This document shows positions 912 through 36,048 of a stretch of DNA of 36,652 nt, piece by piece. The DNA is taken from positions 1-36,652 of the IMG/VR virus record IMGVR_UViG_3300048588_000135; one strand, given 5' to 3'. Source of the DNA: a virus. The notes beneath the pieces were generated by a model, which was given only the letters and a program-made list of their open reading frames with translations, was not told where the DNA came from and did not search any database. The first letter of the stretch is position 1. Each line of letters opens with the position of its first letter. The translations under genes and the position numbers were made by a program.

Positions 912-1265
912 ATGAAGGAAATATTTAAATACTTACAAGAATGTCAGGTAGAAGGGAAATATGTTTCTGCTGTTTTTGGCAGCAGATTTGAGTTTAAAAT
1001 ATACGATTGCGATATTAAAGAGATGATAAAATATAAAGTTAGAGAATTAGCTGGCGGAAGCACACAAACAACATTACGTTTATTTGGCTTTATATGCTGG
1101 GCGTGTTTAAGAGCGAAAAATAGCGGATGGTTTAGACTCTTTGGTATTGGAATTACTTGGACGCAAAATAGTATTACACCGATGTTTAGTAAGCGAATTG
1201 GTAAATATAAAAAAATTACAATAGGAAATTATAGGTATGGGTATTTGAAGCCTTGCCTACAATGA
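912..1265 (+). CDS. Hypothetical phage protein, last gene before the plus-strand cassette array
   Basis: A 117-residue protein that I do not recognise. The N-terminal half is mixed (MKEIFKYLQ...). The C-terminal half contains an aromatic block, GWFRLFGIGITW at about 75-86, followed by a basic tail KRIGKYKKITIGNYRYGYLKP, a pattern seen in small phage proteins of unknown function. The last codons (...KPCLQ) run into the left arm of the first cassette site at 1266, so the C-terminus may have been altered by cassette insertion. It follows ERF by 31 bases and probably belongs to the same early operon. Confidence 0.55.
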   Translation: MKEIFKYLQECQVEGKYVSAVFGSRFEFKIYDCDIKEMIKYKVRELAGGSTQTTLRLFGFICWACLRAKNSGWFRLFGIGITWTQNSITPMFSKRIGKYKKITIGNYRYGYLKPCLQ

Positions 1266-1346
1266 CAAGTGTATGTGCCGTGCTTGTTGTGAACTTTATT
1301 AACGGCTACAAACTTTAATTGCATGGCATCATAATACGTGTTATGC
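1266..1346 (+). repeat. attC-like recombination site A (start of plus array)
   Basis: This is an imperfect palindrome. The left arm at 1266-1283 ends GCCGTGC; the right arm at 1321-1339 starts GCATGGC, and the two pair with a few unpaired bases. The right end is the core G|TTATGC at 1340-1346, which begins cassette 1. The core is complemented by GCATAAC at 1624-1630, at the far end of that cassette. The left core is degenerate, as expected where an array abuts phage sequence. Confidence 0.6.
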
Positions 1347-1359
1347 TTATTTTATTAAC

Positions 1360-1623
1360 ATGAAAATAGAGGCAGAACTTCAACAAATAGTAGTTAGCTC
1401 AAAATCTGAAAGGCTATTACGTTTACCAAAACAATATAGGGGTGCTTATATTTTATCAGCACTTCCTTCTGAATACACGGATGGAACAGAAAATATATCT
1501 ATAATTTTAAATAATAGTTATGATGGAGACAATGAAGATATGGATTTATATATGGATTTGACCAAAAAAGAAGCTATTCAATTTGCAAAATGTTTAATAG
1601 CAATAGCTGAAAGTATTGATTAA
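1360..1623 (+). CDS. Cassette 1 protein, hypothetical
   Basis: An 87-residue acidic protein of unknown family (MKIEAELQQIVVSS...). Its central part, ILSALPSEYTDGTENISII, looks like beta strands, followed by an Asp-rich segment (YDGDNEDMDLYMDL) and a C-terminal helix KKEAIQFAKCLIAIAESID. The gene fills a single cassette: the ATG lies 19 bases after the recombination point at 1340/1341, and the stop precedes the GCATAAC core by two bases. That tight packing is typical of an integron gene cassette. No promoter is visible, so expression probably comes from upstream. Confidence 0.6.
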   Translation: MKIEAELQQIVVSSKSERLLRLPKQYRGAYILSALPSEYTDGTENISIILNNSYDGDNEDMDLYMDLTKKEAIQFAKCLIAIAESID

Positions 1624-1677
1624 GCATAACGCACGATTGTATGTGGTCGCGTAGTGCCATCATACATTGTGTTGTGT
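1624..1677 (+). repeat. attC-like recombination site B (short)
   Basis: A short palindrome of about 55 bases. The left core GCATAAC is at 1624-1630, with left arm ending ATGTGG at 1646. A loop of about ten bases follows. The right arm begins CCATCATAC at 1658, and the right core is G|TTGTGT at 1671-1677. The left core is the exact complement of the start of cassette 1; the match extends to 10 bases, GTTATGCTTA. The right core is complemented by ACACAAC at 2453-2459. Confidence 0.75.
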
Positions 1678-1731
1678 GATGGTGATTTTTTAACCTAAAT
1701 GAAAATAAATAATAAATTTATTAGAAAACGC

Positions 1732-1762
1732 ATTGACTTCTAATATTATTATTATATATTTA
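1732..1762 (+). promoter_or_regulatory. Candidate promoter inside cassette 2
   Basis: ATTG at 1732-1735 is followed after 19 bases by TATATTTA at 1755-1762, close to the Bacteroidota -33/-7 pattern TTTG-N19-TATATTTG. It lies 23 bases upstream of the ATG at 1785 in a long untranslated leader. A promoter carried within a cassette would let its genes be expressed wherever the cassette lands. Confidence 0.4.
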
Positions 1763-1784
1763 CATCATACTTAAAGACAAACAC

Positions 1785-2063
1785 ATGACAATTCAAGATT
1801 TAAAAGATAGCAAAAACGAAATTTTAGAAAGAATATCTGAAATTGGAAACACACAAAAAACCAAAGAAATTATGCAAGCAATGTTGAACCTTGTAAATGG
1901 AAACATGTGTGATGCTGACAACGCTGTTGATTTAGTTGATGAGGTTGTTGAAATGTCTACTTCGTATCAAAAAACATTTGCCCCATCTCTTTGGGGTAAC
2001 GGATGTAAGTATAGCACTCAAGCCGAGTATCAAAGAAGTTGTTTAGGTTCAAAATTTAACTAA
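1785..2063 (+). CDS. Cassette 2 protein a, hypothetical helical protein
   Basis: A 92-residue protein with no recognised family. Residues 1-60 are predicted to be helical (MTIQDLKDSKNEILERIS..., then DNAVDLVDEVVEMS). The C-terminal part has a more extended, Trp/Cys-containing segment (APSLWGNGCKYSTQAEYQ). It is the first of three closely spaced genes in one cassette (1672-2539), with its own candidate promoter. The next gene starts seven bases after its stop. Confidence 0.6.
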   Translation: MTIQDLKDSKNEILERISEIGNTQKTKEIMQAMLNLVNGNMCDADNAVDLVDEVVEMSTSYQKTFAPSLWGNGCKYSTQAEYQRSCLGSKFN

Positions 2064-2070
2064 TAAAGAC

Positions 2071-2253
2071 ATGAAAAAAGAAACATTCACAATAGTAAAA
2101 AAAGGAATGGATACACATTACGACACTAACGACCAAAGATTTTATGGCGGTACTTGGGAAAGAACGCTAGACTCGAAATCATACCTGGAAATGTTAATAT
2201 CAAATAGCCCTGAAAAATTTGAAGGTTGTGAAATACAAGACAACAAATCGTAA
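2071..2253 (+). CDS. Cassette 2 protein b, hypothetical
   Basis: A 60-residue protein of unknown function. It begins MKKETFTIVKKGMDTHYDTND, probably a beta hairpin, followed by FYGGTWERTLDSKSYLEMLIS. Its stop overlaps the start of the HTH-like gene by one base (TAATG), which suggests translational coupling. The three genes of this cassette are therefore probably expressed as one unit. Confidence 0.55.
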   Translation: MKKETFTIVKKGMDTHYDTNDQRFYGGTWERTLDSKSYLEMLISNSPEKFEGCEIQDNKS

Positions 2254-2441
2254 TGACTGACCACCAAAAATTTAAAGCCCTACTAGATGAAGTAGGGCTT
2301 ACTCGTGAAGACTTTGCCGAGTTAATGGGTATGAAATTCACTTCAATGACTAATCAGCTCGCACCTGCTAAGGATTTACCAAAATGGGCTAAGTCTGCTT
2401 TAATAATAGTTGATAGGCTAAAGCTTATAAATGAGCAATAA
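2253..2441 (+). CDS. Cassette 2 protein c, small helix-turn-helix-like protein
   Basis: A 62-residue protein with an XRE-like helix-turn-helix arrangement. FKALLDEVGLTREDFAELMG (about 7-26) resembles helices 1 and 2, and MKFTSMTNQLA (27-37) the turn and recognition helix; PKWAKSALIIVDRL follows. This suggests a small DNA-binding regulator, though the protein is too short and too diverged for a firm family call. It could control its own cassette as the regulator of the two upstream genes. It is coupled to the preceding gene through a one-base overlap and lies just before recombination site C. Confidence 0.55.
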   Translation: MTDHQKFKALLDEVGLTREDFAELMGMKFTSMTNQLAPAKDLPKWAKSALIIVDRLKLINEQ

Positions 2442-2450
2442 AGCGAACTG

Positions 2451-2548
2451 GCACACAACGGTTGGGCTATGTGCAGTTGCCCTTGTAGAAACTTTAAATA
2501 TTGCACTAACCTAAATTGGGCAATTGCATACAGCCTGTGTTATGCCCC
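2451..2548 (+). repeat. attC-like recombination site C
   Basis: A long imperfect palindrome. The left core ACACAAC is at 2453-2459 and the left arm at 2461-2482 ends CAGTTGCCC. The right arm at 2518-2535 starts GGGCAATTGCATACAGCC, and the right core is G|TTATGCCCC at 2539-2548. The left core complements the start of cassette 2 (GTTGTGTG, 8 bases). The right core is the exact 10-base complement of GGGGCATAAC at 3255-3264. The left arm is two bases longer than the right, so some bases remain unpaired, as in attC sites. Confidence 0.8.
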
Positions 2549-2579
2549 GTAATTGTTTAACTTATTAATCTTAAATACA

Positions 2580-3263
2580 ATGAATTATCAAATTATTAAA
2601 GACAAAGAAAAGCTACTGAAATTTATTGAATGGCTTCCTGAATTGCAAAATGGGGAGGCTTATTATTGCTGCCTTTTTGCACGTTCAAAATATTGTAAAG
2701 ATGTTGCTCATATTAGCTCGGATAAACAACAGTTAAAAAGATTTACTTCGACTAAAGAGTTTTTGTTTGAAAAAATACAGCAATTAGAATGTGAAGTTGG
2801 CAGTTACTTTCAAAAGCATAATCCAATACCACAAGAAGCACTTGCAATTTATATTAACCCAAACCCAAGAAGCTACGAGAAAGCCGCAAAGAATGGATTA
2901 ATAAAACTTGCTGAACTAATTACAAAACCTTACGGTGGATATAACCCACACCAAGAATTAATGAGCGAAATACAAAAGGCTTGTAGTCGAAAAGTGTATT
3001 TTGATATTGATTTTGATGGCGTTGAATTGGAAGTTGTTAGAAATAGAGCAATTGAACTTATAAACGAAGATTGTTTGCATTTTTTACAAACAAGGGGCGG
3101 TTTTCATTTACTTGTTGAGTTGTCAAAAATTAATAAGCAATACGAAAAAACTTGGTACAAATCAATTTCATCTATCGAGGGAGTTGATATTAAAGGGGAC
3201 AATATGGTTCCTGTTATCGGATGCTACCAAGGTGGATATGTGCCGTCTTTTTATGGGGCATAA
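2580..3263 (+). CDS. Cassette 3 protein, possible AEP-type primase fold
   Basis: A 227-residue protein filling one cassette. I chose the ATG at 2580 because an upstream TTG would add residues from untranslated leader. Residues 142-148 (VYFDIDFDG) match the hhhDhD metal-binding motif of archaeo-eukaryotic primase-like proteins, and [10 protein letters not shown] about 35 residues later matches their sxH motif. The N-terminal 140 residues are helical, with conserved-looking aromatic residues ([23 protein letters not shown]). If correct, this is a small nucleotidyltransferase or primase-like enzyme; the third motif is not obvious. The stop codon lies in the cassette core GGGGCATAAC. This is inference from motifs only. 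Confidence 0.5.
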
Positions 3264-3393
3264 CGGTTAGGCGGTTGGCGTTCGTTGCCGACTTTGGAAC
3301 ACAAAACTTTCACTTTAAAAATAAATTTGATATGGAAAACAAAACTTCAATTAACCACGAAGACGGCAATGACGCTAACCGCTTGTTAGCTGC
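3255..3393 (+). repeat. attC-like recombination site D (start codon of next gene lies inside)
   Basis: The left core GGGGCATAAC is at 3255-3264. The left arm runs through GGTTGGCGTTCGTTGCC to 3289. The right arm GGCAATGACGCTAACCGC is at 3365-3382, and the right core G|TTAGCTGC is at 3385-3393. The left core is the perfect complement of the start of cassette 3. The right core is the perfect 9-base complement of GCAGCTAAC at 3627-3635. The central loop carries the ATG at 3332, so the next gene starts inside the site. Confidence 0.8.
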
Positions 3394-3634
3394 TGGGCTT
3401 TTTGATTTACAAGAATTTCACGGATGGCCACCAACAACAGTAAACAATTATTTTGAAGAGAAAGGGTGGGAAATGATTGATTGCTTTAATGATTATAAAT
3501 GGGCTTGGGTAAATCATTCTCTTAATAAATCTATTGTTGCAAAAACTGAAATGGTAGATGAAGATGCTTTGGGAAATGAAATGATAGTTGATATTTGGTG
3601 GTATGATGGGATTTATTCAGAGCCTTGCAGCTAA
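3332..3634 (+). CDS. Cassette 4 protein, hypothetical; start lies within attC-like site
   Basis: A 100-residue acidic protein rich in Trp and Tyr (GWPPTTVNNYFEEKGW, YKWAWVNHSL, VDIWWYDGIYSEPCS), with no recognised family. The chosen ATG at 3332 lies in the loop of site D, so the first 18 codons (MENKTSINHEDGNDANRL) come from the preceding recombination site and the rest from cassette 4. No ATG occurs early in cassette 4 itself. The stop is the TAA of the core GCAGCTAAC. The protein would therefore depend on which site lies upstream. Whether the native start is here or at a TTG at 3383 is uncertain. Confidence 0.5.
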   Translation: MENKTSINHEDGNDANRLLAAGLFDLQEFHGWPPTTVNNYFEEKGWEMIDCFNDYKWAWVNHSLNKSIVAKTEMVDEDALGNEMIVDIWWYDGIYSEPCS

Positions 3635-3671
3635 CACCGATATATCCCAATGTGGTTATATTGGTGGATAA
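3627..3671 (+). repeat. Distal boundary hairpin of plus array (shared with minus array)
   Basis: The core GCAGCTAAC at 3627-3635 leads into a hairpin: CACCGATATA at 3635-3644 pairs with TATATTGGTG at 3657-3666. The sequence from 3632 to 3671 is repeated at 29770-29809 on the minus strand with 39 of 40 bases identical, and weak similarity continues for about 15 more bases. Identity on the left stops at the variable part of the core. The right end lacks a canonical GTT core (GTGGATA). After this point ordinary phage sequence resumes. Confidence 0.8.
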
Positions 3672-3705
3672 CCCAAATGGAATAGTACTATCTGATATTG
3701 GAATA

Positions 3706-4137
3706 ATGAAAGATATATTTGTTGACATCGGAATAACAAAAGGCAGCGCGGTAGTAATGGTGGACCACGAAAACAAAAGTATTGCCGTTTTAAAAAGGTT
3801 TTGCGCAGGCGAATTAATAGATCTCTTTTTAACCGAAAAAGGCACTATTTTCATCGAGGACAGTAATTTAATCAAAGGCAGTTGGCACGGAGCAACTTCG
3901 CGCGAAAATGTTGGTAAAAATAAAGGCTTTTCATCCGCTATTTTCCAAATTCTAAACCACAAAGGAATAACTATCAAACCGCTAAAACCAAGCGGTTATA
4001 GTAGTTTCTTTGAAAAACACAAACTAGAAAAAATTTTCAAGAACAAGCCAAAAAAAACAAACACCGACCAGCGCGCAGCTCTAGCAATGGCATTACTACA
4101 TTCATCAAGCCCAATTCAAAACTATTTATTTATTTAG
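3706..4137 (+). CDS. RuvC-like Holliday junction resolvase
   Basis: A 143-residue protein with an RNase H-like RuvC arrangement. The ATG at 3706 begins MKDIFVDIGITKGSAVVMVD, with the first acidic residue at about D7 in the DxGxxxG strand. IFIEDSNLIKG places the second acid at about E51. NVGKNKGFSSAI and IKPLKPSGY follow, and TNTDQRAALAMAL near 119-130 gives the C-terminal acid. Such enzymes cut branched DNA before packaging. I chose this start because an upstream in-frame extension is encoded by the array hairpin. The stop overlaps the 20-base promoter element of the next operon. Activity is inferred from fold motifs. Confidence 0.65.
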   Translation: MKDIFVDIGITKGSAVVMVDHENKSIAVLKRFCAGELIDLFLTEKGTIFIEDSNLIKGSWHGATSRENVGKNKGFSSAIFQILNHKGITIKPLKPSGYSSFFEKHKLEKIFKNKPKKTNTDQRAALAMALLHSSSPIQNYLFI

Positions 4138-4215
4138 AATGATTATAAATTACATTATTTTGTAACTATTTATGTAACTATTTGCATGTTATTAAAGTAT
4201 AATATAATATATTTG
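4133..4215 (+). promoter_or_regulatory. Early promoter with conserved 20-bp upstream element (copy 1)
   Basis: TTTAGAATGATTATAAATTA is at 4133-4152. TTTG follows at 4181-4184, then AAAGTATAAT and TATATTTG at 4208-4215. The whole block closely resembles 35953-36023, including the 23-base spacing between TTTG and TATATTTG. It should drive the 4280-6485 operon, leaving a leader of about 60 bases. The upstream element may bind an activator or the phage repressor. Confidence 0.7.
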
Positions 4216-4279
4216 AGTAGCAAGCTAAAACAAGTTCAGCACACACGGTTATAAGAAAAGAAATAGAATCTTTAAGCAA

Positions 4280-5326: not shown

Positions 5327-5445
5327 ACTATCCGCTAACGTTCCGAGTATTGCCGTTCGTTGCGGATTTAGAATTACAAACTTTCAAAACAGATAAAACA
5401 TGAATACAGAACAAAACTTTCAAAATAGCACAGAAGCCAGCAATG
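5327..5445 (+). repeat. attC-like site F, partly degraded
   Basis: The core ACTATCCGCTAAC at 5327-5339 is followed by GCCGTTCGTTGC (5357-5368), nearly identical to the left arm of site D. The centre carries the start codon of the next gene at 5400. A right-arm trace, GCAATGACG, occurs at 5440-5448, as in site D, but no clear GTT core follows. Left arm and centre are preserved; the right end is eroded. Confidence 0.5.
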
Positions 5446-5600
5446 ACGTTTTTCTTGGTTTCTTTTCGATACTATGGGTGGTTGCTTTGGTATTATGGGT
5501 AACATTTGTAATAAAAGGAATGATTACTGAAATGTGTATTGCAAATGCTTTTATGTGGATTGGTGTCTTTGGTCGCAGCTGGTCAAAAAATGGCAGCTAA
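5400..5600 (+). CDS. Cassette 6 protein, small membrane protein
   Basis: A 66-residue protein. The N-terminus (MNTEQNFQNSTEASNDV) is encoded in the loop of site F and resembles the start of the protein at 3332 in position and composition. Residues 18-40 (FLGFFSILWVVALVLWVTFV) form a confident membrane helix, and MCIANAFMWIGVF at about 46-58 a weaker second one. It is followed directly by the core GGCAGCTAAC. Function unknown; possibly an inner-membrane miniprotein. Confidence 0.5.
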   Translation: MNTEQNFQNSTEASNDVFLGFFSILWVVALVLWVTFVIKGMITEMCIANAFMWIGVFGRSWSKNGS

Positions 5601-5640
5601 CGTTTTGCAGCTACACGCAGTAGCCGAAGCAGGCAACAGC
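5592..5640 (+). repeat. attC-like half-site G at end of the short array
   Basis: The core GGCAGCTAAC at 5592-5601 is followed by GTTTTGCAGCTACACGCAG, which resembles the 5' portions of the other sites. I see no matching right arm or GTT core before phage coding sequence resumes. It is best read as a truncated recombination site. Confidence 0.4.
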
Positions 5641-29744: not shown

Positions 29745-29769
29745 TGTTAATATAATTATTCGGTTTGGT

Positions 29770-29814
29770 TTATCCACCAATATAACCACATTGGGTTATA
29801 TCGGTGTTATCGGC
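29770..29814 (-). repeat. Distal boundary hairpin of minus array (shared with plus array)
   Basis: On the minus strand the core GCCGATAAC (29814 to 29806) runs into the same 40-bp hairpin found at 3632-3671 in the plus array; 39 of 40 bases are identical. CACCGATATAACC pairs with GGTTATATTGGTG. The core is complementary to the start of the DUF3560 cassette (GTTATCGGC). Phage sequence follows. Confidence 0.8.
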
Positions 29815-29816
29815 AA

Positions 29817-30470
29817 TTAAGCCCAGAGTTTCACGGCAGTTTCATGCTTAGATTTTAATTCTTTTATTTTCTTGCTCGCATAAGACAAAGCCATTCCGTG
29901 TGGCCGCTCTTTCGGATTATCTTTTAAAAATTGGTGATATACCTTTGCTTCTTCGAGTTGTATCTCAAAAAATTCTAAACTCTCAGGCATTGAAAGGTCA
30001 ATTTTATTTGCCATACTTTCCCAATATGCAGTTCTTTCACGGTAGGTATCAGCTTTTTTATATTCTTCCATTGCATTACTCATTCTATTCCAGTTTCGCT
30101 CAATTAATGCACGGTGTCGTTTTTCGCTGTGATGTCCTACTTTTATAGGTTCTGCAAGTGCCAAAAAATCTTTACCTTCATTGCTTTTTTCTTGCCAATC
30201 ACTACCCTTTTTGTCCGCATTGTCAGCCCAATTATTTAGCTTTTCAACTTTATTTCTTGCTCTTTCTTGGTTATTATAACCATCAGCACGAGTAATTGAA
30301 TAACAATACATAGGTTTTTCTTTTGTCCCTGTGTAGCCTACAAAATTGTGAACTATACATTCATTTTCTTTTCCATACTTGGTTTCAACTATAATAGTAT
30401 CACCTTTTTCGTGCTTTTCTTCGCATTGTGCCACAAATACATTTGGGCAATATTTTTTGTAAGTATTCAT
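29817..30470 (-). CDS. DUF3560-domain protein (cassette gene)
   Basis: A 217-residue protein. Residues from about 110 carry the DUF3560 pattern: GHHSEKRHRALIERNWNRMS (about 111-130), then KADTYRERTAYWESMAN, and a C-terminal EAKVYHQFLKDNPKERP. This domain is found in plasmid and phage accessory proteins, sometimes with ParB- or methyltransferase-linked genes; its activity is unknown. The N-terminal half (YKKYCPNVFVAQCEEKHEKGDTI) is beta-rich with a VTRADG-like motif. The gene fills one cassette with boundary cores that are exact complements. It is next to the methyltransferase cassette. Confidence 0.75.
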   Translation of the reverse strand: MNTYKKYCPNVFVAQCEEKHEKGDTIIVETKYGKENECIVHNFVGYTGTKEKPMYCYSITRADGYNNQERARNKVEKLNNWADNADKKGSDWQEKSNEGKDFLALAEPIKVGHHSEKRHRALIERNWNRMSNAMEEYKKADTYRERTAYWESMANKIDLSMPESLEFFEIQLEEAKVYHQFLKDNPKERPHGMALSYASKKIKELKSKHETAVKLWA

Positions 30471-30504
30471 AATATTTTGATATTTATTTGATTAAAAATT
30501 AAAA

Positions 30505-30602
30505 GCCGATAACACGGTATATATGCCATGCGCCAATTAGTGTCGTGCTATTTTTATGTTTATCGCGGGCGCACGTCACATATACCCATCGTTATATGAA
30601 AG
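30505..30602 (-). repeat. attC-like site before the DUF3560 cassette
   Basis: Read on the minus strand: core CTTTCATATAAC (30602 to 30591), left arm ending GACGTGCGCC, a loop, right arm GGCGCATGGCATATATACC, and the core G|TTATCGGC (30513 to 30505). The left core complements the start of the methyltransferase cassette at 14 of 15 positions. The right core is the exact complement of GCCGATAAC at 29806-29814. Confidence 0.82.
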
Positions 30603-30668
30603 TGGGCAGACCTACTTCGATTTAAGTTCTGTGAGAAAGAAAAAAGAAAAAATCTGCCCACGCTCATT

Positions 30669-31406
30669 TTAAAGAGATTTATTTATGACAACAATTTTAC
30701 CTCCTACCATTGTACCACTTTCTTTGAAAGAACCTTTTTCAATATCAATCACTTCGGCTTCAACTTCATCAAGCCAATTTTTAAAATCAACTTGCTTTTT
30801 TTGGCTTCCGTTTACCCAACTTTCAGAAGTAATGCAAACCAATCTACCGCCACGAGAAAGGCACTCGTACATTTCTTTTAAGTGGTCAATATCTTGGTTT
30901 TTTGTAAATGGTGGGTTTGCAATAATCTTACTATAAGTTTTGCCATTGTGCTTAAAGAAATCATCTCCAATCAAATTAAAACGCAAACCACTTTTATTCA
31001 ATATAACTGTGTTTACATCCATCAATTCAAAGCAATCAGGTATAACATCGCAAACTTTGTTTATTGCCTTGATAATTGCACCCTGTCCAGCACTTGGCTC
31101 TAAAATTGTATCGTGTTGTTTAAGTTCAGCTAAATAAACCAATTCGTCTGCAAGTTTTTCAGGTGTCGCAAAAAACTGAAATTCTTTTTTTAAGTTTCGT
31201 TTTTCACCATTTGCAATTTGGTCTAATAAGTCTGTCGGGTCGGTAGCGAATACAAACCCAAATACCTTACCACCTTTCCATTTACCTCCAATCAATTCAA
31301 GTGCTTTTGCTACTTCTTGATAAAGTTTACGGTCAAGTTGTACGTTTGGGAGTTTTACCGTTGTTCCATCAACTGTGCAATTCTGCAATACTTCTTCTTT
31401 TGTCAT
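30669..31406 (-). CDS. N6-adenine DNA methyltransferase (cassette gene)
   Basis: A 245-residue methyltransferase. EPSAGQGAI at 103-111 is the AdoMet-binding motif I, and IIANPPFTKN at about 161-170 is the catalytic NPPF motif IV of adenine-N6 enzymes. FFATPEKLADELV before motif I is typical of the type I-like M subunit architecture. The protein is small, with no target-recognition domain that I can see, so specificity is unclear. It could protect phage DNA from host restriction. It is preceded by a 25-residue basic miniprotein in the same cassette. Confidence 0.85.
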   Translation of the reverse strand: MTKEEVLQNCTVDGTTVKLPNVQLDRKLYQEVAKALELIGGKWKGGKVFGFVFATDPTDLLDQIANGEKRNLKKEFQFFATPEKLADELVYLAELKQHDTILEPSAGQGAIIKAINKVCDVIPDCFELMDVNTVILNKSGLRFNLIGDDFFKHNGKTYSKIIANPPFTKNQDIDHLKEMYECLSRGGRLVCITSESWVNGSQKKQVDFKNWLDEVEAEVIDIEKGSFKESGTMVGGKIVVINKSL

Positions 31407-31418
31407 TATTTTATGTTT

Positions 31419-31496
31419 TTAAAATTTCCCACGCTCATTTTTCTTTTTTCTTTTACGTGCTTCAATGAAAGTGTAGTGCGTAAAATCCACCTTCAT
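31419..31496 (-). CDS. 25-residue basic miniprotein (cassette)
   Basis: A short frame starting at the ATG that overlaps the recombination core GTTATATG, reading MKVDFTHYTFIEARKRKKKN plus ERGKF. It is strongly basic. A longer frame from upstream would be read through the recombination site, so I prefer this start. It ends 12 bases before the methyltransferase start codon. It may serve as a leader or coupled peptide for that gene, or be an independent miniprotein. Confidence 0.4.
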   Translation of the reverse strand: MKVDFTHYTFIEARKRKKKNERGKF

Positions 31497-31598
31497 ATAA
31501 CACGGGTTTTGTGCAATTTGCCCTATTAACATTTGTCTATAATTTGAACATTTGTGCAAGGGCAAACTGACACAAAGCCCAAAAACGTTAGCCACAAG
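31490..31598 (-). repeat. attC-like site before the methyltransferase cassette
   Basis: On the minus strand: core CTTGTGGCTAAC (31598 to 31587), then TTTGGGCTTTGTGTCAG with TTTGCCC, a loop, GGGCAAATTGCACAAAACCC, and the core G|TTATATGAAGG (31501 to 31490). The left core matches the complement of the start of the neighbouring cassette at 11 of 12 positions. The palindrome is imperfect, with unpaired bases. Confidence 0.82.
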
Positions 31599-31599
31599 T

Positions 31600-32103
31600 T
31601 TAAGACCTGCGTTCATTTAAGCACTCTTCTACTACATTTGAAACAGCCAAAGACATTTTAGATTTGAAAATAGCATCTTGTTTCAGTTCGTTTGAAATTT
31701 TATCAAATAAACCATCGTTGTTTGAAATAATATTTCTTGCAACTTTATGCGAAAATGCTGTAATTATTGAGTTCTTAAAATCATCAGTTCTAATTACCGA
31801 ATTAAAGCTATCTGAAATCAATTGCTTTAAAAATGTTGTGTTTTCTGAAACAACCGCTTCAACTAATTTTTTCAATGGAGAACTGTAATCTGTCAATACT
31901 TTTTGTATGCTTTCATTCATTGCAATTTGAGCAGTTCTTAAAATGTCCTGCTCCAATGTAATCGGTAGGTGTTTCTTTTCCGTTTTGGTATTAATTGCTT
32001 CAACTTGCATTTTTACATCTTCACGGAATTTTGAGTTTTCTGCTCTTAAATCTTGAACAGCTTTAAATAAGTTGTCAATTGTTTGTTGTTCTTTCGTTGT
32101 CAT
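31600..32103 (-). CDS. Cassette protein, helical, hypothetical
   Basis: A 167-residue protein that is almost entirely helical. Residues 1-45 form a likely coiled coil (TIDNLFKAVQDLRAENSKFREDVK), then charged helices (LPITLEQDILRTAQIAMNES, SPLKKLVEAVVSENTTFLKQL). No family recognised. It fills its cassette from the start core GTTAGCCACAGG to the end core CTTGTGGCTAAC. Function unknown; an oligomeric scaffold is possible. Confidence 0.6.
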   Translation of the reverse strand: MTTKEQQTIDNLFKAVQDLRAENSKFREDVKMQVEAINTKTEKKHLPITLEQDILRTAQIAMNESIQKVLTDYSSPLKKLVEAVVSENTTFLKQLISDSFNSVIRTDDFKNSIITAFSHKVARNIISNNDGLFDKISNELKQDAIFKSKMSLAVSNVVEECLNERRS

Positions 32104-32137
32104 AATTATTTAATTTTAAGGTGATTATTAATAAAAC

Positions 32138-32276
32138 CCTGTGGCTAACAATGTGTATAATTAATTGGGGTTGCAGTGCGGTTTTCAGCGTTTTACCTCG
32201 CCCCAGCGTTCAGTGTCTTTGATTGGTTCGTGCCACGTAATCCCCAACTAATCATACACTAAACGTTAGCCGCAAG
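32138..32276 (-). repeat. attC-like site before the helical cassette protein
   Basis: On the minus strand: core CTTGCGGCTAAC (32276 to 32265), left arm GTGTATGATTAGTTGGGG, a loop of about 60 bases, right arm CCCCAATTAATTATACAC, and the core G|TTAGCCACAGG (32149 to 32138). Both arms are longer than in the other sites, giving a strong hairpin. Confidence 0.8.
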
Positions 32277-32277
32277 C

Positions 32278-32349
32278 CTACCGACCACGTTTACGAGCTT
32301 GTTTTGCACGTTTAGACGCAGCCCTTGACTTTTTCTGTTTATTAGTCAT
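32278..32349 (-). CDS. 23-residue Arg/Lys-rich miniprotein (cassette)
   Basis: A frame that begins at the ATG overlapping the previous gene's stop (ATGA) and reads MTNKQKKSRAASKRAKQARK plus RGR. Eleven of its residues are Lys or Arg, so a nucleic-acid-binding peptide is plausible. The stop immediately precedes the recombination core. It is too short to be found by default length cut-offs. Because it is coupled and its frame is open, I list it at moderate confidence. Confidence 0.45.
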   Translation of the reverse strand: MTNKQKKSRAASKRAKQARKRGR

Positions 32350-32471
32350 GGACTTTTACGACTTGGTTTTGAACCCGAATATTTCATTTCAGGTAAATCG
32401 GAATAAGGATTTGTGTAATCCATCATTGTTGCTGCTAATCCCAACATTAGGGCTGCTTTTTTCATACTCAT
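32346..32471 (-). CDS. 41-residue cassette miniprotein
   Basis: A frame starting ATGAGTATG at 32471 and reading MSMKKAALMLGLAATMMDYT then NPYSDLPEMKYSG, ending SKSRKSP-like in a basic tail. The N-terminal 18 residues are hydrophobic after two lysines, so a membrane or secretion segment is possible. Its stop overlaps the start of the 23-residue gene. Unknown function. Confidence 0.45.
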   Translation of the reverse strand: MSMKKAALMLGLAATMMDYTNPYSDLPEMKYSGSKPSRKSP

Positions 32472-32499
32472 ATTGTTATTTTGTTTGTGAGAACTGTCA

Positions 32500-32535
32500 G
32501 GCGGCTAGTGCAAAGCCGTAAAACGTTAGCGGCAA
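32500..32535 (-). repeat. Degenerate attC-like site
   Basis: On the minus strand the core GCCGCTAAC (32533 to 32525) is followed by GTTTTACGGCTTTGCACTAGCCGCC. The expected right core is replaced by CTAGCCGC; its TAGCCGC part still complements the core at the far end of the next cassette. Only a short GGC/GCC stem remains, so the site is probably inactive or shortened. Confidence 0.5.
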
Positions 32536-32537
32536 CC

Positions 32538-32825
32538 TTACAGAAACTCATCAACCTTGTGAGTGTCTAATCCTGTATAAGTGTGTATTAGTTTCCGCAA
32601 AGCGGAACCACAACTTTCTACCATCTTAATTCTATCTTCAATAGCCATACCATCGTAATCTTGGTTATCATACATTTTGTCCATTAAAGCAGTTTGAAAA
32701 ATAATAGTTGCGTTCCTAAAATCCCTTTTGGAATAATTAGGTTTGTTTTCATTACCTTTTGCATCTGCATTTTGGGTTAGCAAGTCGTTTGCTATTGATT
32801 CAAGTTCTGTTTTGTAATTTCTCAT
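32538..32825 (-). CDS. Cassette protein, hypothetical
   Basis: A 95-residue protein. I start it at the ATG at 32825 (MRNYKTELESIANDLLTQ), because an upstream in-frame extension is encoded by the recombination site. It is helical and acidic, with a Lys/Asn-rich loop (ADAKGNENKPNYSKRDFRN) and a C-terminal segment KLIHTYTGLDTHKVDEFL. No family recognised. It fills a cassette between sites at 32855-32986 and 32500-32535. Confidence 0.6.
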   Translation of the reverse strand: MRNYKTELESIANDLLTQNADAKGNENKPNYSKRDFRNATIIFQTALMDKMYDNQDYDGMAIEDRIKMVESCGSALRKLIHTYTGLDTHKVDEFL

Positions 32826-32854
32826 TTTATTATTGATTTGTGAAGAAAGGCAGC

Positions 32855-32986
32855 CGCACACACGTGCTATACAAAAGAGGCGGTTCGGTACTCCGCAGGA
32901 GCATTTATGGTTAAACAAACATTTGTACTCCGCATCAACTTTAGTGCTAATAATCGCCTCCTTCGTATAGCACCATACGTTGTAAG
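32855..32986 (-). repeat. attC-like site with non-canonical right core
   Basis: On the minus strand: core CTTACAAC (32986 to 32979), left arm GGTGCTATACGAAGGAGGCG, a loop, right arm CGCCTCTTTTGTATAGCAC, and a right core GTGTGCGGC instead of the expected GTTAGCGGC. The left core complements the start of the 59-residue cassette at 13 of 14 positions. The palindrome is well preserved despite the core change. Confidence 0.7.
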
Positions 32987-32991
32987 TAATA

Positions 32992-33171
32992 CTACTTTTG
33001 TACTCCGTAAGAAACTATAATTTTATTAAGCACTTGTATTTTTGCTTTAATGCACGTTATTATTTTTTTATCGTGTTTAGTGAATTTTAAGTTATTCATA
33101 CTACTTGTTAAGTCTATTGCAGTTATTTCGTGCCTTAGCTCTTTTATTTCTCTTTGTATTAATTCAATCAT
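32992..33171 (-). CDS. 59-residue cassette protein, hypothetical
   Basis: A helical, basic protein (MIELIQREIKELRHEITAID, SMNNLKFTKHDKKIITCIKA, IQVLNKIIVSYGVQK). Its first 20 residues could form a short coiled coil. It fills a cassette of about 230 bases, starting about 40 bases after the core. I recognise no family. Its open frame ends exactly before the CTTACAAC core. Confidence 0.55.
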   Translation of the reverse strand: MIELIQREIKELRHEITAIDLTSSMNNLKFTKHDKKIITCIKAKIQVLNKIIVSYGVQK

Positions 33172-33200
33172 TTTATTTTGTTTTAGTTAATATTTCCGTA

Positions 33201-33256
33201 CTACTTACAACAACACCTAAAACGCCACTACGCGGACGTTTAGCTAGGCGTTAATC
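33201..33256 (-). repeat. attC-like site, short (about 56 bases)
   Basis: On the minus strand: core GATTAAC (33256 to 33250), GCCTAGCTAAACG, a short centre, then GTTTTAGGTGTTGTT and the core G|TTGTAAG (33211 to 33204). The palindrome is short but continuous. The right core fits the complement of the end of the 59-residue cassette. Confidence 0.65.
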
Positions 33257-33409
33257 ATCGCTTAATGACTGCCCGAAAACTATACAAGCTAAACATACAG
33301 GAAGATACCACTTCCAATTATCTGTTTGAGTTATCCAAATCGATGATAAAATCATTCCACTTGTGAATATTGCTACTGAGTTTAAAAACTTTTTTACTTT
33401 TTTCATCAT
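33251..33409 (-). CDS. 52-residue cassette membrane protein
   Basis: A frame MMKKVKKFLNSVAIFTSGMI then LSSIWITQTDNWKWYLPVCL and ACIVFGQSLSDD. It has a basic N-terminus and two short hydrophobic segments (about 10-27 and 35-47), so a small two-pass membrane protein is likely. The stop TAA is part of the GATTAAC core. The cassette start core (GTTATAG) and end core match only in GTTA, so this cassette is more diverged than the others. Confidence 0.5.
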   Translation of the reverse strand: MMKKVKKFLNSVAIFTSGMILSSIWITQTDNWKWYLPVCLACIVFGQSLSDD

Positions 33410-33424
33410 TCTAAAATAAACGCC

Positions 33425-33460
33425 CTATAACATCGGTTCGGCAATTTTGTCGTTTTGCTC
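33425..33460 (-). repeat. Half-site at the start of the minus array
   Basis: On the minus strand ATTGCCGAACCGATG is followed by the core G|TTATAGGGCG (33431 to 33421). I cannot find a left arm upstream. It marks the join between phage sequence and the first cassette, where only the right half of a site is expected. Confidence 0.45.
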
Positions 33461-33714: not shown

Positions 33715-33748
33715 GATTCTTAGTTTTTAAGTGTCTTATTTAATGATT

Positions 33749-33819
33749 CAAATATACCTATTTATACTTTAAAAATAACAAAATAGTTTTAAGAAATAGT
33801 AATTTATAATCATTCTAAA
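33749..33819 (-). promoter_or_regulatory. Early promoter with conserved 20-bp element (copy 4, minus operon)
   Basis: On the minus strand: TTTAGAATGATTATAAATTA (33819 to 33800), TTTG (33782 to 33779), AAAGTATAA, and TATATTTG (33756 to 33749). The TTTG to TATATTTG gap is 22 bases, close to the 23 of the plus-strand copies. It should drive the entire minus array through 29511. Confidence 0.72.
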
Positions 33820-33865
33820 TAGCGAGCGTGGGTTTTATAGCGGAAAAAATGTTTTACTTTTGGGT

Positions 33866-34313: not shown

Positions 34314-34898
34314 ATGAGAAAAGCATTTAATTTCTATTACAGTTACTATGAAGTAATGAAAGAACTTCCCGAAAAGGAGAAGCTAACTTTTTTGACTGCA
34401 ATATTAGAACGACAATTTGAAGGTATTGAACCTAATGGTTTAAAGGGTATGGCTAAGCTTGCGTACATATCACAGAAACATAGCATTGATGCGCAAGTGG
34501 TTGGTTATGAGAAGAAAACGGGAGTCACTTTAACACCTTTGGTAGGGGGTTCGGTAGGGGGTTCGGTAGGGGGTTCGGTAGGGGGTTCGGTACAAGAGAA
34601 AGAGAAAGAGAAAGAGAAAGAGAAAGAGAAAGGTGAACTGTCGCATATACCTGCTTTTGAAGATTTTCTCGCTCATGCAATTTCTAAAGTGCCTAACGTG
34701 TGTAAGGAAGCTGTCAAACTAAAATATGACAGTTGGGTAGAGAATGGGTGGAAGGATGGCAATGACAAAAAAATAAAAAACTGGCACAGCAAGCTTACTA
34801 ATACTGTTGGGTTCCTGCAAAAACAAAAAACAAATAATTATGGAAGATTTGAGCAAAAAGGAAATATTGGATATGACGAGGCACTTGCCAAGTGGTAA
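34314..34898 (+). CDS. DUF6291-like replication protein with repetitive linker
   Basis: A 194-residue protein. The N-terminal half (FYYSYYEVMKELPEKEKLTF, then LERQFEGIEPNGLKGMAKLA) resembles the DUF6291 domain of phage replication proteins. The middle is low complexity, with four GGSV units (about 78-93) and six Glu-Lys pairs (about 95-106). The C-terminal domain (AFEDFLAHAISKVPNVCKEA, KNWHSKLTNTVGFLQKQK) resembles the C-terminus of replication initiators. It starts the replication block, and its 3' end overlaps the next gene. The linker DNA may be an origin (see findings). Confidence 0.6.
   Translation: MRKAFNFYYSYYEVMKELPEKEKLTFLTAILERQFEGIEPNGLKGMAKLAYISQKHSIDAQVVGYEKKTGVTLTPLVGGSVGGSVGGSVGGSVQEKEKEKEKEKEKGELSHIPAFEDFLAHAISKVPNVCKEAVKLKYDSWVENGWKDGNDKKIKNWHSKLTNTVGFLQKQKTNNYGRFEQKGNIGYDEALAKW
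34541..34631 (+). repeat. In-gene tandem repeats: 12-bp x4 and GAGAAA x6
   Basis: GGTAGGGGGTTC is repeated four times at 34541-34588, then after seven bases GAGAAA is repeated six times at 34596-34631. Both keep the reading frame. The first array has four runs of five G per strand, so a G-quadruplex is possible. The arrangement recalls iterons plus an AT/purine-rich element inside a replication gene. Confidence 0.85.
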
Positions 34899-35679: not shown

Positions 35680-35957
35680 AAAGTAAAAGAATGAAAGCGC
35701 TAGAGGGCGCAGCGCATAGCTATATTGAGGCGTTTTGTAAGAAGCAAGAGATGGAATTTGAGGGCACTATCGGAGTGTGTGAAATAGTTATCTGCAGCGA
35801 CTTCTATTTCAGTTTTCAGGATATAGTTCACGACATTGAAACAAAGCAGCCAAAAGGTCTTATAATTAAATGGTATTATGATTCAATTGATTTTCACCCG
35901 AAAGTTTTAAACTATAAAAGTTTTTGCATTGGCTTAAGGTTTGAACATATTGTTTAG
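35676..35957 (+). CDS. Hypothetical early protein
   Basis: A 93-residue protein (MKSKRMKALEGAAHSYIEAF, CKKQEMEFEGTIGVCEIVIC) with a beta-rich end (PKGLIIKWYYDSIDFHPKVL, NYKSFCIGLRFEHIV). It overlaps the preceding gene by four bases. Its stop lies inside the 20-bp promoter element at 35953. No family recognised. Confidence 0.6.
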   Translation: MKSKRMKALEGAAHSYIEAFCKKQEMEFEGTIGVCEIVICSDFYFSFQDIVHDIETKQPKGLIIKWYYDSIDFHPKVLNYKSFCIGLRFEHIV

Positions 35958-36023
35958 AATGATTATAAATTACAGAAATATAAAACTATTTGTATGTTAC
36001 TAAAGTATAATGTATTATATTTG
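35953..36023 (+). promoter_or_regulatory. Early promoter with conserved 20-bp element (copy 2)
   Basis: TTTAGAATGATTATAAATTA at 35953-35972, TTTG at 35989-35992, AAAGTATAAT and TATATTTG at 36016-36023. It should drive 36049 through the circular junction, ERF and the plus array. It is the closest relative of the block at 4133. Confidence 0.72.
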
Positions 36024-36048
36024 AACAACAAAATAAACAAGTGAAGAA

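Follow-up and report, generated by a model that had tools for sequence, protein, structure and literature searches.

Integron-type gene cassettes have been described from phages before. Clusters of attC sites lacking integron integrases (CALINs) were published for virulent phages, their attC sites being usable by IntI1, and phage capture of bacterial arrays was proposed (Qi et al. 2023, PMC9892861). The integron integrase IntI contains an insertion, without which integrons reportedly do not work (MacDonald et al. 2006, as cited in PMC8138268). Here we describe two cassette arrays in the IMG/VR viral record IMGVR_UViG_3300048588_000135, analysed over its whole length of 36,652 nucleotides (the window). 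We put at roughly 75% the probability that these are phage-associated integron-type arrays, whose cassettes are exchanged at the step AA|C by an integrase which in relatives is Xer-like and which acts in trans on the window phage. The open-access literature, to which our search was confined (preprints and subscription papers lay outside it), yielded no inverted-cassette phage integron with an Xer-like, non-IntI integrase.

A first-pass annotation, made from the letters alone, had noticed four consecutive segments with GTT-type cores, joined by imperfect palindromes, and had read them as integron-type cassettes. The four core pairs are present, with complementary runs of 10, 8, 10 and 9 bases, as are long palindromes at this array, and the reading as cassettes is borne out by attC sites, by the exchange of whole units and by the pairing of each cassette's own ends. 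The extent and limits of the cassettes had to be redrawn. The window phage has two arrays, at 1263-3634 on the plus strand and at 29807-33436 on the minus strand, each ending at an attI-like copy; the second had escaped the first-pass annotation. The mobile units of the first array are delimited by cuts at plus-strand AA|C. The parts, given with their open reading frames (ORFs), are as follows.

1263-1629, plus strand: array 1 cassette 1; attC palindrome at about 1261-1342, then ORF 1360-1623; ends GTTATGCTTA/TAAGCATAAC, complementary run 10
1630-2458, plus strand: array 1 cassette 2; palindrome at about 1628-1681; ORFs 1785-2063, 2071-2253 and 2253-2441, the last helix-turn-helix (HTH)-like
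2459-3263, plus strand: array 1 cassette 3; palindrome 2457-2541; ORF from 2553 or 2581 to 3263
3264-3634, plus strand: array 1 cassette 4; palindrome 3262-3387; ORF 3332-3634
3635-3690, minus strand: attI-like copy 1; inverted repeat 3635-3666; fixed end of array 1
29757-29806, plus strand: attI-like copy 2; inverted repeat 29775-29806; fixed end of array 2
29807-30591, minus strand: array 2 cassette A; ORF 29820-30470 (DUF3560); attC 30511-30593
30592-31587, minus strand: array 2 cassette B; DNA methyltransferase ORF 30672-31406; attC 31499-31589
31588-32265, minus strand: array 2 cassette C; ORF 31603-32103; attC 32147-32267; own-end run 10
32266-32525, minus strand: array 2 cassette D, tentative; degenerate distal core; own-end run 3
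32526-32979, minus strand: array 2 cassette E, tentative; ORF 32541-32825; own-end run 3
32980-33250, minus strand: array 2 cassette F; ORF 32995-33171; own-end run 10
33251-33436, minus strand: array 2 last unit G, tentative; ORF 33254-33409; distal boundary uncertain

The mobile units were compared with those of G001, a contig of 36.7 kb recovered by a scan with the ERF protein, whose backbone is about 99.9% identical to that of the window phage. Counted from the shared 54-bp sequence, array 1 has the order 4, 3, 2, 1 in the window and 1, 4, 3, a 4.6-kb cassette and another cassette in G001. Cassette 1, distal in the window and attI-proximal in G001, was thus relocated as a unit, and other cassettes stand in place of cassette 2. 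Array 2 begins with cassette A in the window and with a different gene, Y, in G001, and continues in both with cassette B. Cassette-sized differences at the exact core points, which the first-pass annotation had proposed to look for in relatives, are therefore present. Wherever a junction between the two genomes could be mapped, it lies at the step AA|C of the ORF strand and so at G|TT of its complement; the cut at cassette 1 is unusually clear because this cassette ends in A instead of G, and reads AA|TGAC in both contexts. In every comparison palindrome and downstream ORF move together, therefore the mobile unit consists of palindrome, ORF and end box, in an order opposite to that of a standard cassette. 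The usual direction, in which an ORF is followed by its own attC, was rejected on this ground, and with it the cassette orientation assumed initially, the G|TT crossover being antisense to the ORFs.

The same behaviour is seen in cultured Polaribacter phages. Freya_1 has an empty site, TTTACAA|CACCCCTATAAC, Freya_10 carries about 4.9 kb inserted at this very step between identical flanks, and at the same AA|C the genomes of Freya_9 and Freya_10 show a difference of precisely one cassette (about 305 bp). Whole units are exchanged at G|TT both in the window/G001 pair and among these isolates. The cassettes beside the recombinase differ between the isolates Freya_1, 6, 8, 9 and 10 (loci L226, L227 and L231-L235), which makes these phages a ready laboratory model. 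The authors of the isolates noted only the integrase and the temperate potential (Bartlau et al., PMC8776804).

The attC sites were located with a custom-made scanner, which looks for AAC, two stem arms and GTT with attC-like spacing and requires a stem energy of -14 kcal/mol or better. Scanning of the whole window gave three sites on the plus strand and five on the minus strand, all within the two arrays, and the same scan found no site in 12 dinucleotide shuffles of the window. An Rfam scan of the window detected neither attC nor any other RNA family. By the custom scanner the window has the composition of a CALIN, i.e. at least two attC sites, none of them near intI. The stem registers vary between sites. 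Own-end core complementarity with runs of 8-10 bases was found in cassettes 1-4, A, B, C and F, and was absent from D, E and G. The first-pass annotation had regarded such pairing as a strong fingerprint. Taken alone it is weaker evidence, because 28 GTT/AAC pairs lying 200-1000 bp apart in the window reach at least eight complementary bases and just eight of them are cassettes; what distinguishes the arrays is the chain of consecutive units. Across the family the pairing is decisive: runs of at least seven occurred in 102 of 156 own-end pairs, as against 19 of 216 for the two boxes of a single site (p = 3e-24).

The polarity of the ORFs could be judged against attC sites located beside intI in Bacteroidota genomes with a true IntI, which exceeded the cut-off in 105 of 395 genomes. 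These sites have, on the canonical strand, 1-2 bases between AAC and the stem and 4-5 bases between the stem and GTT, C precedes G|TT in 95%, and the ORFs of their arrays lead away from intI (13,408 vs. 2,361 amino acids). The phage sites show the mirror spacing when read in the sense of the ORFs, and, on the strand complementary to the ORFs, 99% of 195 phage-type sites have C before G|TT. None of the window cassette ORFs reads from the 5' core towards attC; all run the opposite way and point towards the attI-like sequence. Site structure and crossover mapping agree, hence the window units are true attC-type cassettes, whose ORFs are inverted relative to both attC and attI.

The window contains no tyrosine recombinase detectable with TIGR02249 or PF00589 at E <= 10, as had been noted initially; PF00589 was found in 14 of 14 control genomes. 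G001 likewise lacks such an enzyme. Recombinase genes are present in relatives. DNA 92% identical to cassette A occurs in a Bacteroidales metagenome-assembled genome (MAG), inside a chromosomal array of the inverted type, which ends at the gene of a 266-amino-acid Xer-like recombinase; this MAG has no IntI. Jumbo phage G005 has an inverted-type array and a phage-type recombinase gene with a frameshift. At this locus (L107/L030) the recombinase adjoins an array of two cassettes and the frameshift lies near the end of the gene. A 53-kb phage (G011), whose TerL is 46-47% identical to that of the window phage, carries an array of ten sites and an Xer-like recombinase at opposite ends of the contig, adjacent only if the genome is circular.

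Viral contigs were then scanned with two full-length recombinases, which gave 80 loci before removal of duplicates. At 43 of the 44 viral loci with at least 1.5 kb of upstream sequence, attC sites lay upstream of the recombinase gene. In total there were 181 sites upstream vs. 6 downstream, with a polarity of 179:2, and the array ORFs amounted to 22,558 amino acids on the recombinase strand vs. 756 on the opposite one. Dozens of viral contigs thus carry such arrays and phage integron parts have been published (PMC9892861), so that the window phage is not the unusual carrier it had been taken for. The recombinase of about 266 amino acids scores 124-126 bits with the IntI model (TIGR02249; cut-off 265 bits) and best with XerA; in alignments it keeps the catalytic residues (RHRHY) and lacks the IntI-specific insertion. 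A complete IntI-type integron, with the insertion and a TIGR02249 score above 265 bits, was found neither in the window nor in its relatives. The phage-type sequences are well supported as a group separate from IntI, and one chromosomal Xer-like protein (L200) falls among them. Among 395 Bacteroidota genomes a strong match was limited to the MAG itself, therefore the recombinase looks mainly viral. At least 8 of 28 viral records with the phage-type recombinase also carry a terminase of one family. If we define a phage-type inverted integron as an array directly upstream of the ~266-amino-acid Xer-like recombinase with polarity antisense to the ORFs, the window and G001 have the polarity and lack the adjacent recombinase. 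The initial suggestion of mobilisation in trans is supported. Its presumption of a host enzyme is not, for while a host IntI is conceivable, inverted arrays go with the Xer-like recombinase carried mostly by phages. Some control Xer-like recombinases are also near attC sites, but on the 3' side and in the opposite polarity, and we therefore treat them as a separate matter. Xer-like recombinases of about 345 amino acids from Bacteroidota chromosomes (L203, L205, L208, L210, L211 and L213) have attC-like sites beyond the 3' end, in a polarity opposite to the phage type, possibly a further integron layout.

At the recombinase loci a conserved attI core lies directly past the last end box, mostly as AA|CTACTATATGTAA, about 50-100 bp before the recombinase gene. 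Nine loci with a near-identical recombinase and attI have four different first cassettes, all joined at AA|C. The two attI-like copies that close the window arrays share 54-60 bp with 90% identity. Copy 1 is joined at AA|CACCGATATA by cassette 4 in the window and by cassette 1 in G001, and copy 2 at G|TT by cassette A or Y, respectively. The attI-like sequences of the window read AA|CACCGATATAAC (copy 2), which matches the Freya/Ingeline attI in 10 of 12 positions, the best of 1525 AAC sites of the window, and AA|CACCGATATATC (copy 1), which matches in 9 of 12 and ties for second. Searching viral contigs for the attI-like sequence returned only G001. The 54-bp repeat may conceivably serve as an operator and nothing else, but this would leave unexplained why the differences between arrays begin exactly at its edge.

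These observations fit a model in which a cassette of the layout attC palindrome, ORF and RYYYAA-like end would leave as a circle and re-insert by site-specific recombination at AA|C, either between attC sites or beside a short attI. The substrate would be the folded single-stranded attC, and we infer that the Xer-like recombinase performs the reaction. Most relatives encode this enzyme, a tyrosine recombinase of about 266 amino acids without the IntI-specific insertion, directly beyond attI. The attI would stand at the end towards which the cassette ORFs point, therefore early transcription of the phage would presumably run through the cassettes. The window phage may have lost the integrase or never had it while keeping two attI-like copies, and a co-infecting phage, a prophage or the host would supply such an enzyme to move its cassettes in trans. 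In its wider form, which we consider rather probable, Bacteroidota phages own an integron class with an Xer-like integrase, an adjoining attI and inverted cassettes, of which the window is an integrase-less form with two attI platforms served in trans.

Several points weigh against this interpretation. The window phage itself encodes no integrase, the attC sites were called by a custom scanner rather than by a curated covariance model or the IntegronFinder model, and cassettes D, E and G have degenerate ends. Extrahelical bases as clear as in the attC sites of Vibrio are missing from the window palindromes, but also from the IntI-linked sites of Bacteroidota. The attI match is short, and a broader attI profile ranks the two copies only 7th and 57th of 1525, which makes their identity as attI no more than likely. 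The window/G001 breakpoints rest on metagenomic assemblies, and the G001 contig terminates inside array 2. It is conceivable on this account that homologous or illegitimate recombination of mosaic phages, or assembly errors at repeats, mimic cassette shuffling. We give this hardly any credence: numerous joins of independent origin, among them those of isolates whose flanks are identical, fall at the same dinucleotide step, and the palindromes share almost no sequence able to drive homologous recombination.

A more serious possibility, which we nevertheless judge improbable, is that these are ordinary bacterial cassettes moved in trans by a host IntI, with no need for a phage-type recombinase. 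The frequency of true IntI in Bacteroidota, the spacing and C|G|TT asymmetry that IntI-linked attC sites share with the phage sites, the near relative of cassette A in a Bacteroidales chromosomal array and the recombination of phage attC sites by IntI1 in E. coli (PMC9892861) would all agree with it. However, ORFs of IntI-linked arrays run away from intI, whereas the window shares with phage-type arrays ORFs that head for attI; the chromosomal array with cassette A itself stands beside a phage-type recombinase in a MAG without IntI; and the attI-like sequence of the window is closer to the Freya/Ingeline attI than to bacterial attI regions. The Xer-like enzyme might also be an ordinary lysogeny integrase and attI its attP, with cassettes gathering beside it by other means. 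To Bartlau et al. (PMC8776804) the Freya/Leef/Danklef gene suggested that these phages may be temperate, and PHROGs places the family under integration and excision. We find this very unlikely, as it explains neither the fixed-polarity attC arrays lying only upstream at 43 of 44 loci, nor own-end complementarity, nor single-cassette differences exactly at the site.

The two contig ends of the 36.7-kb record share a repeat of about 145 bases, therefore the record is probably a complete genome. Its genes include TerL, portal and an ERF-type recombination protein; TerL relatives are found in flavobacterial phages and viral contigs, and the host is a Bacteroidota-type bacterium. The cassettes encode a methyltransferase, a DUF3560 protein, an HTH protein and small proteins of no assigned function; the gene of cassette 3 also occurs in jumbo phages, there outside any cassette. 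G001 cassettes carry a helicase with IbrA/IbrB-like genes and a protein weakly matching a candidate defence family. The 4.6-kb cassette (L013 3587-8149), large for a cassette, contains helicase pieces, IbrA-like (DUF3440/PAPS reductase) and ParB-like genes. A stretch of 165 bp at window 35733-35897, away from any cassette boundary, is missing in G001. Array 1 is followed by a plus-strand gene at 3707-4137 with a weak Holliday-junction-resolvase-like match (phrog_1770, E 0.002). Degenerate attC-like stretches around ORF 5400-5600 (5330-5640) are perhaps remnants of an old cassette. Related AT-rich stretches, 74-87% identical, at 4137-4235, 33745-33830 and 35957-36042 lie upstream of gene blocks and are perhaps repeated phage promoters. 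ORF 34314-34898 contains tandem repeats (GGSV, EK) at 34545-34635.

Phage mosaicism is usually ascribed to homologous or illegitimate recombination, whereas the exchange described here is modular and site-specific and concerns single-gene units such as methyltransferases, DUF3560 and IbrA/IbrB-like operons. Viral contigs commonly contain such arrays, and cultured isolates show them too. If our interpretation is true, phages use them to exchange genes among themselves, drawing on a common pool of cassettes. The association of integron-like capture with an enzyme without the insertion reported as essential makes the evolution of attC recombination testable, and inverted arrays with a non-IntI enzyme explain why IntegronFinder-type searches would call them CALINs.

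It is instructive to compare these arrays with the known systems. Like IntI arrays, including those of Bacteroidota, they have attC palindromes with R boxes, a G|TT crossover, R''/R' own-end pairing and an attI beside an integrase gene that is transcribed away from the array. They differ in that the ORFs are inverted with respect to attC and attI, and in that the recombinase is Xer-like, about 266 amino acids long, without the insertion and on a separate branch; the window itself has no integrase. With the phage CALINs of Qi et al. (2023, PMC9892861), e.g. that of Polaribacter phage P12002L, they share attC cassettes without intI and methyltransferase cargo, but they differ in their dedicated recombinase of phage type, in the constant inversion of the ORFs and in the exchange documented here. 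The recombinase belongs to the fold family of simple tyrosine recombinases of the XerA/XerC/XerD type and aligns with their catalytic RHRHY residues; unlike them, it is linked in the genome to attC arrays and attI, not to dif.

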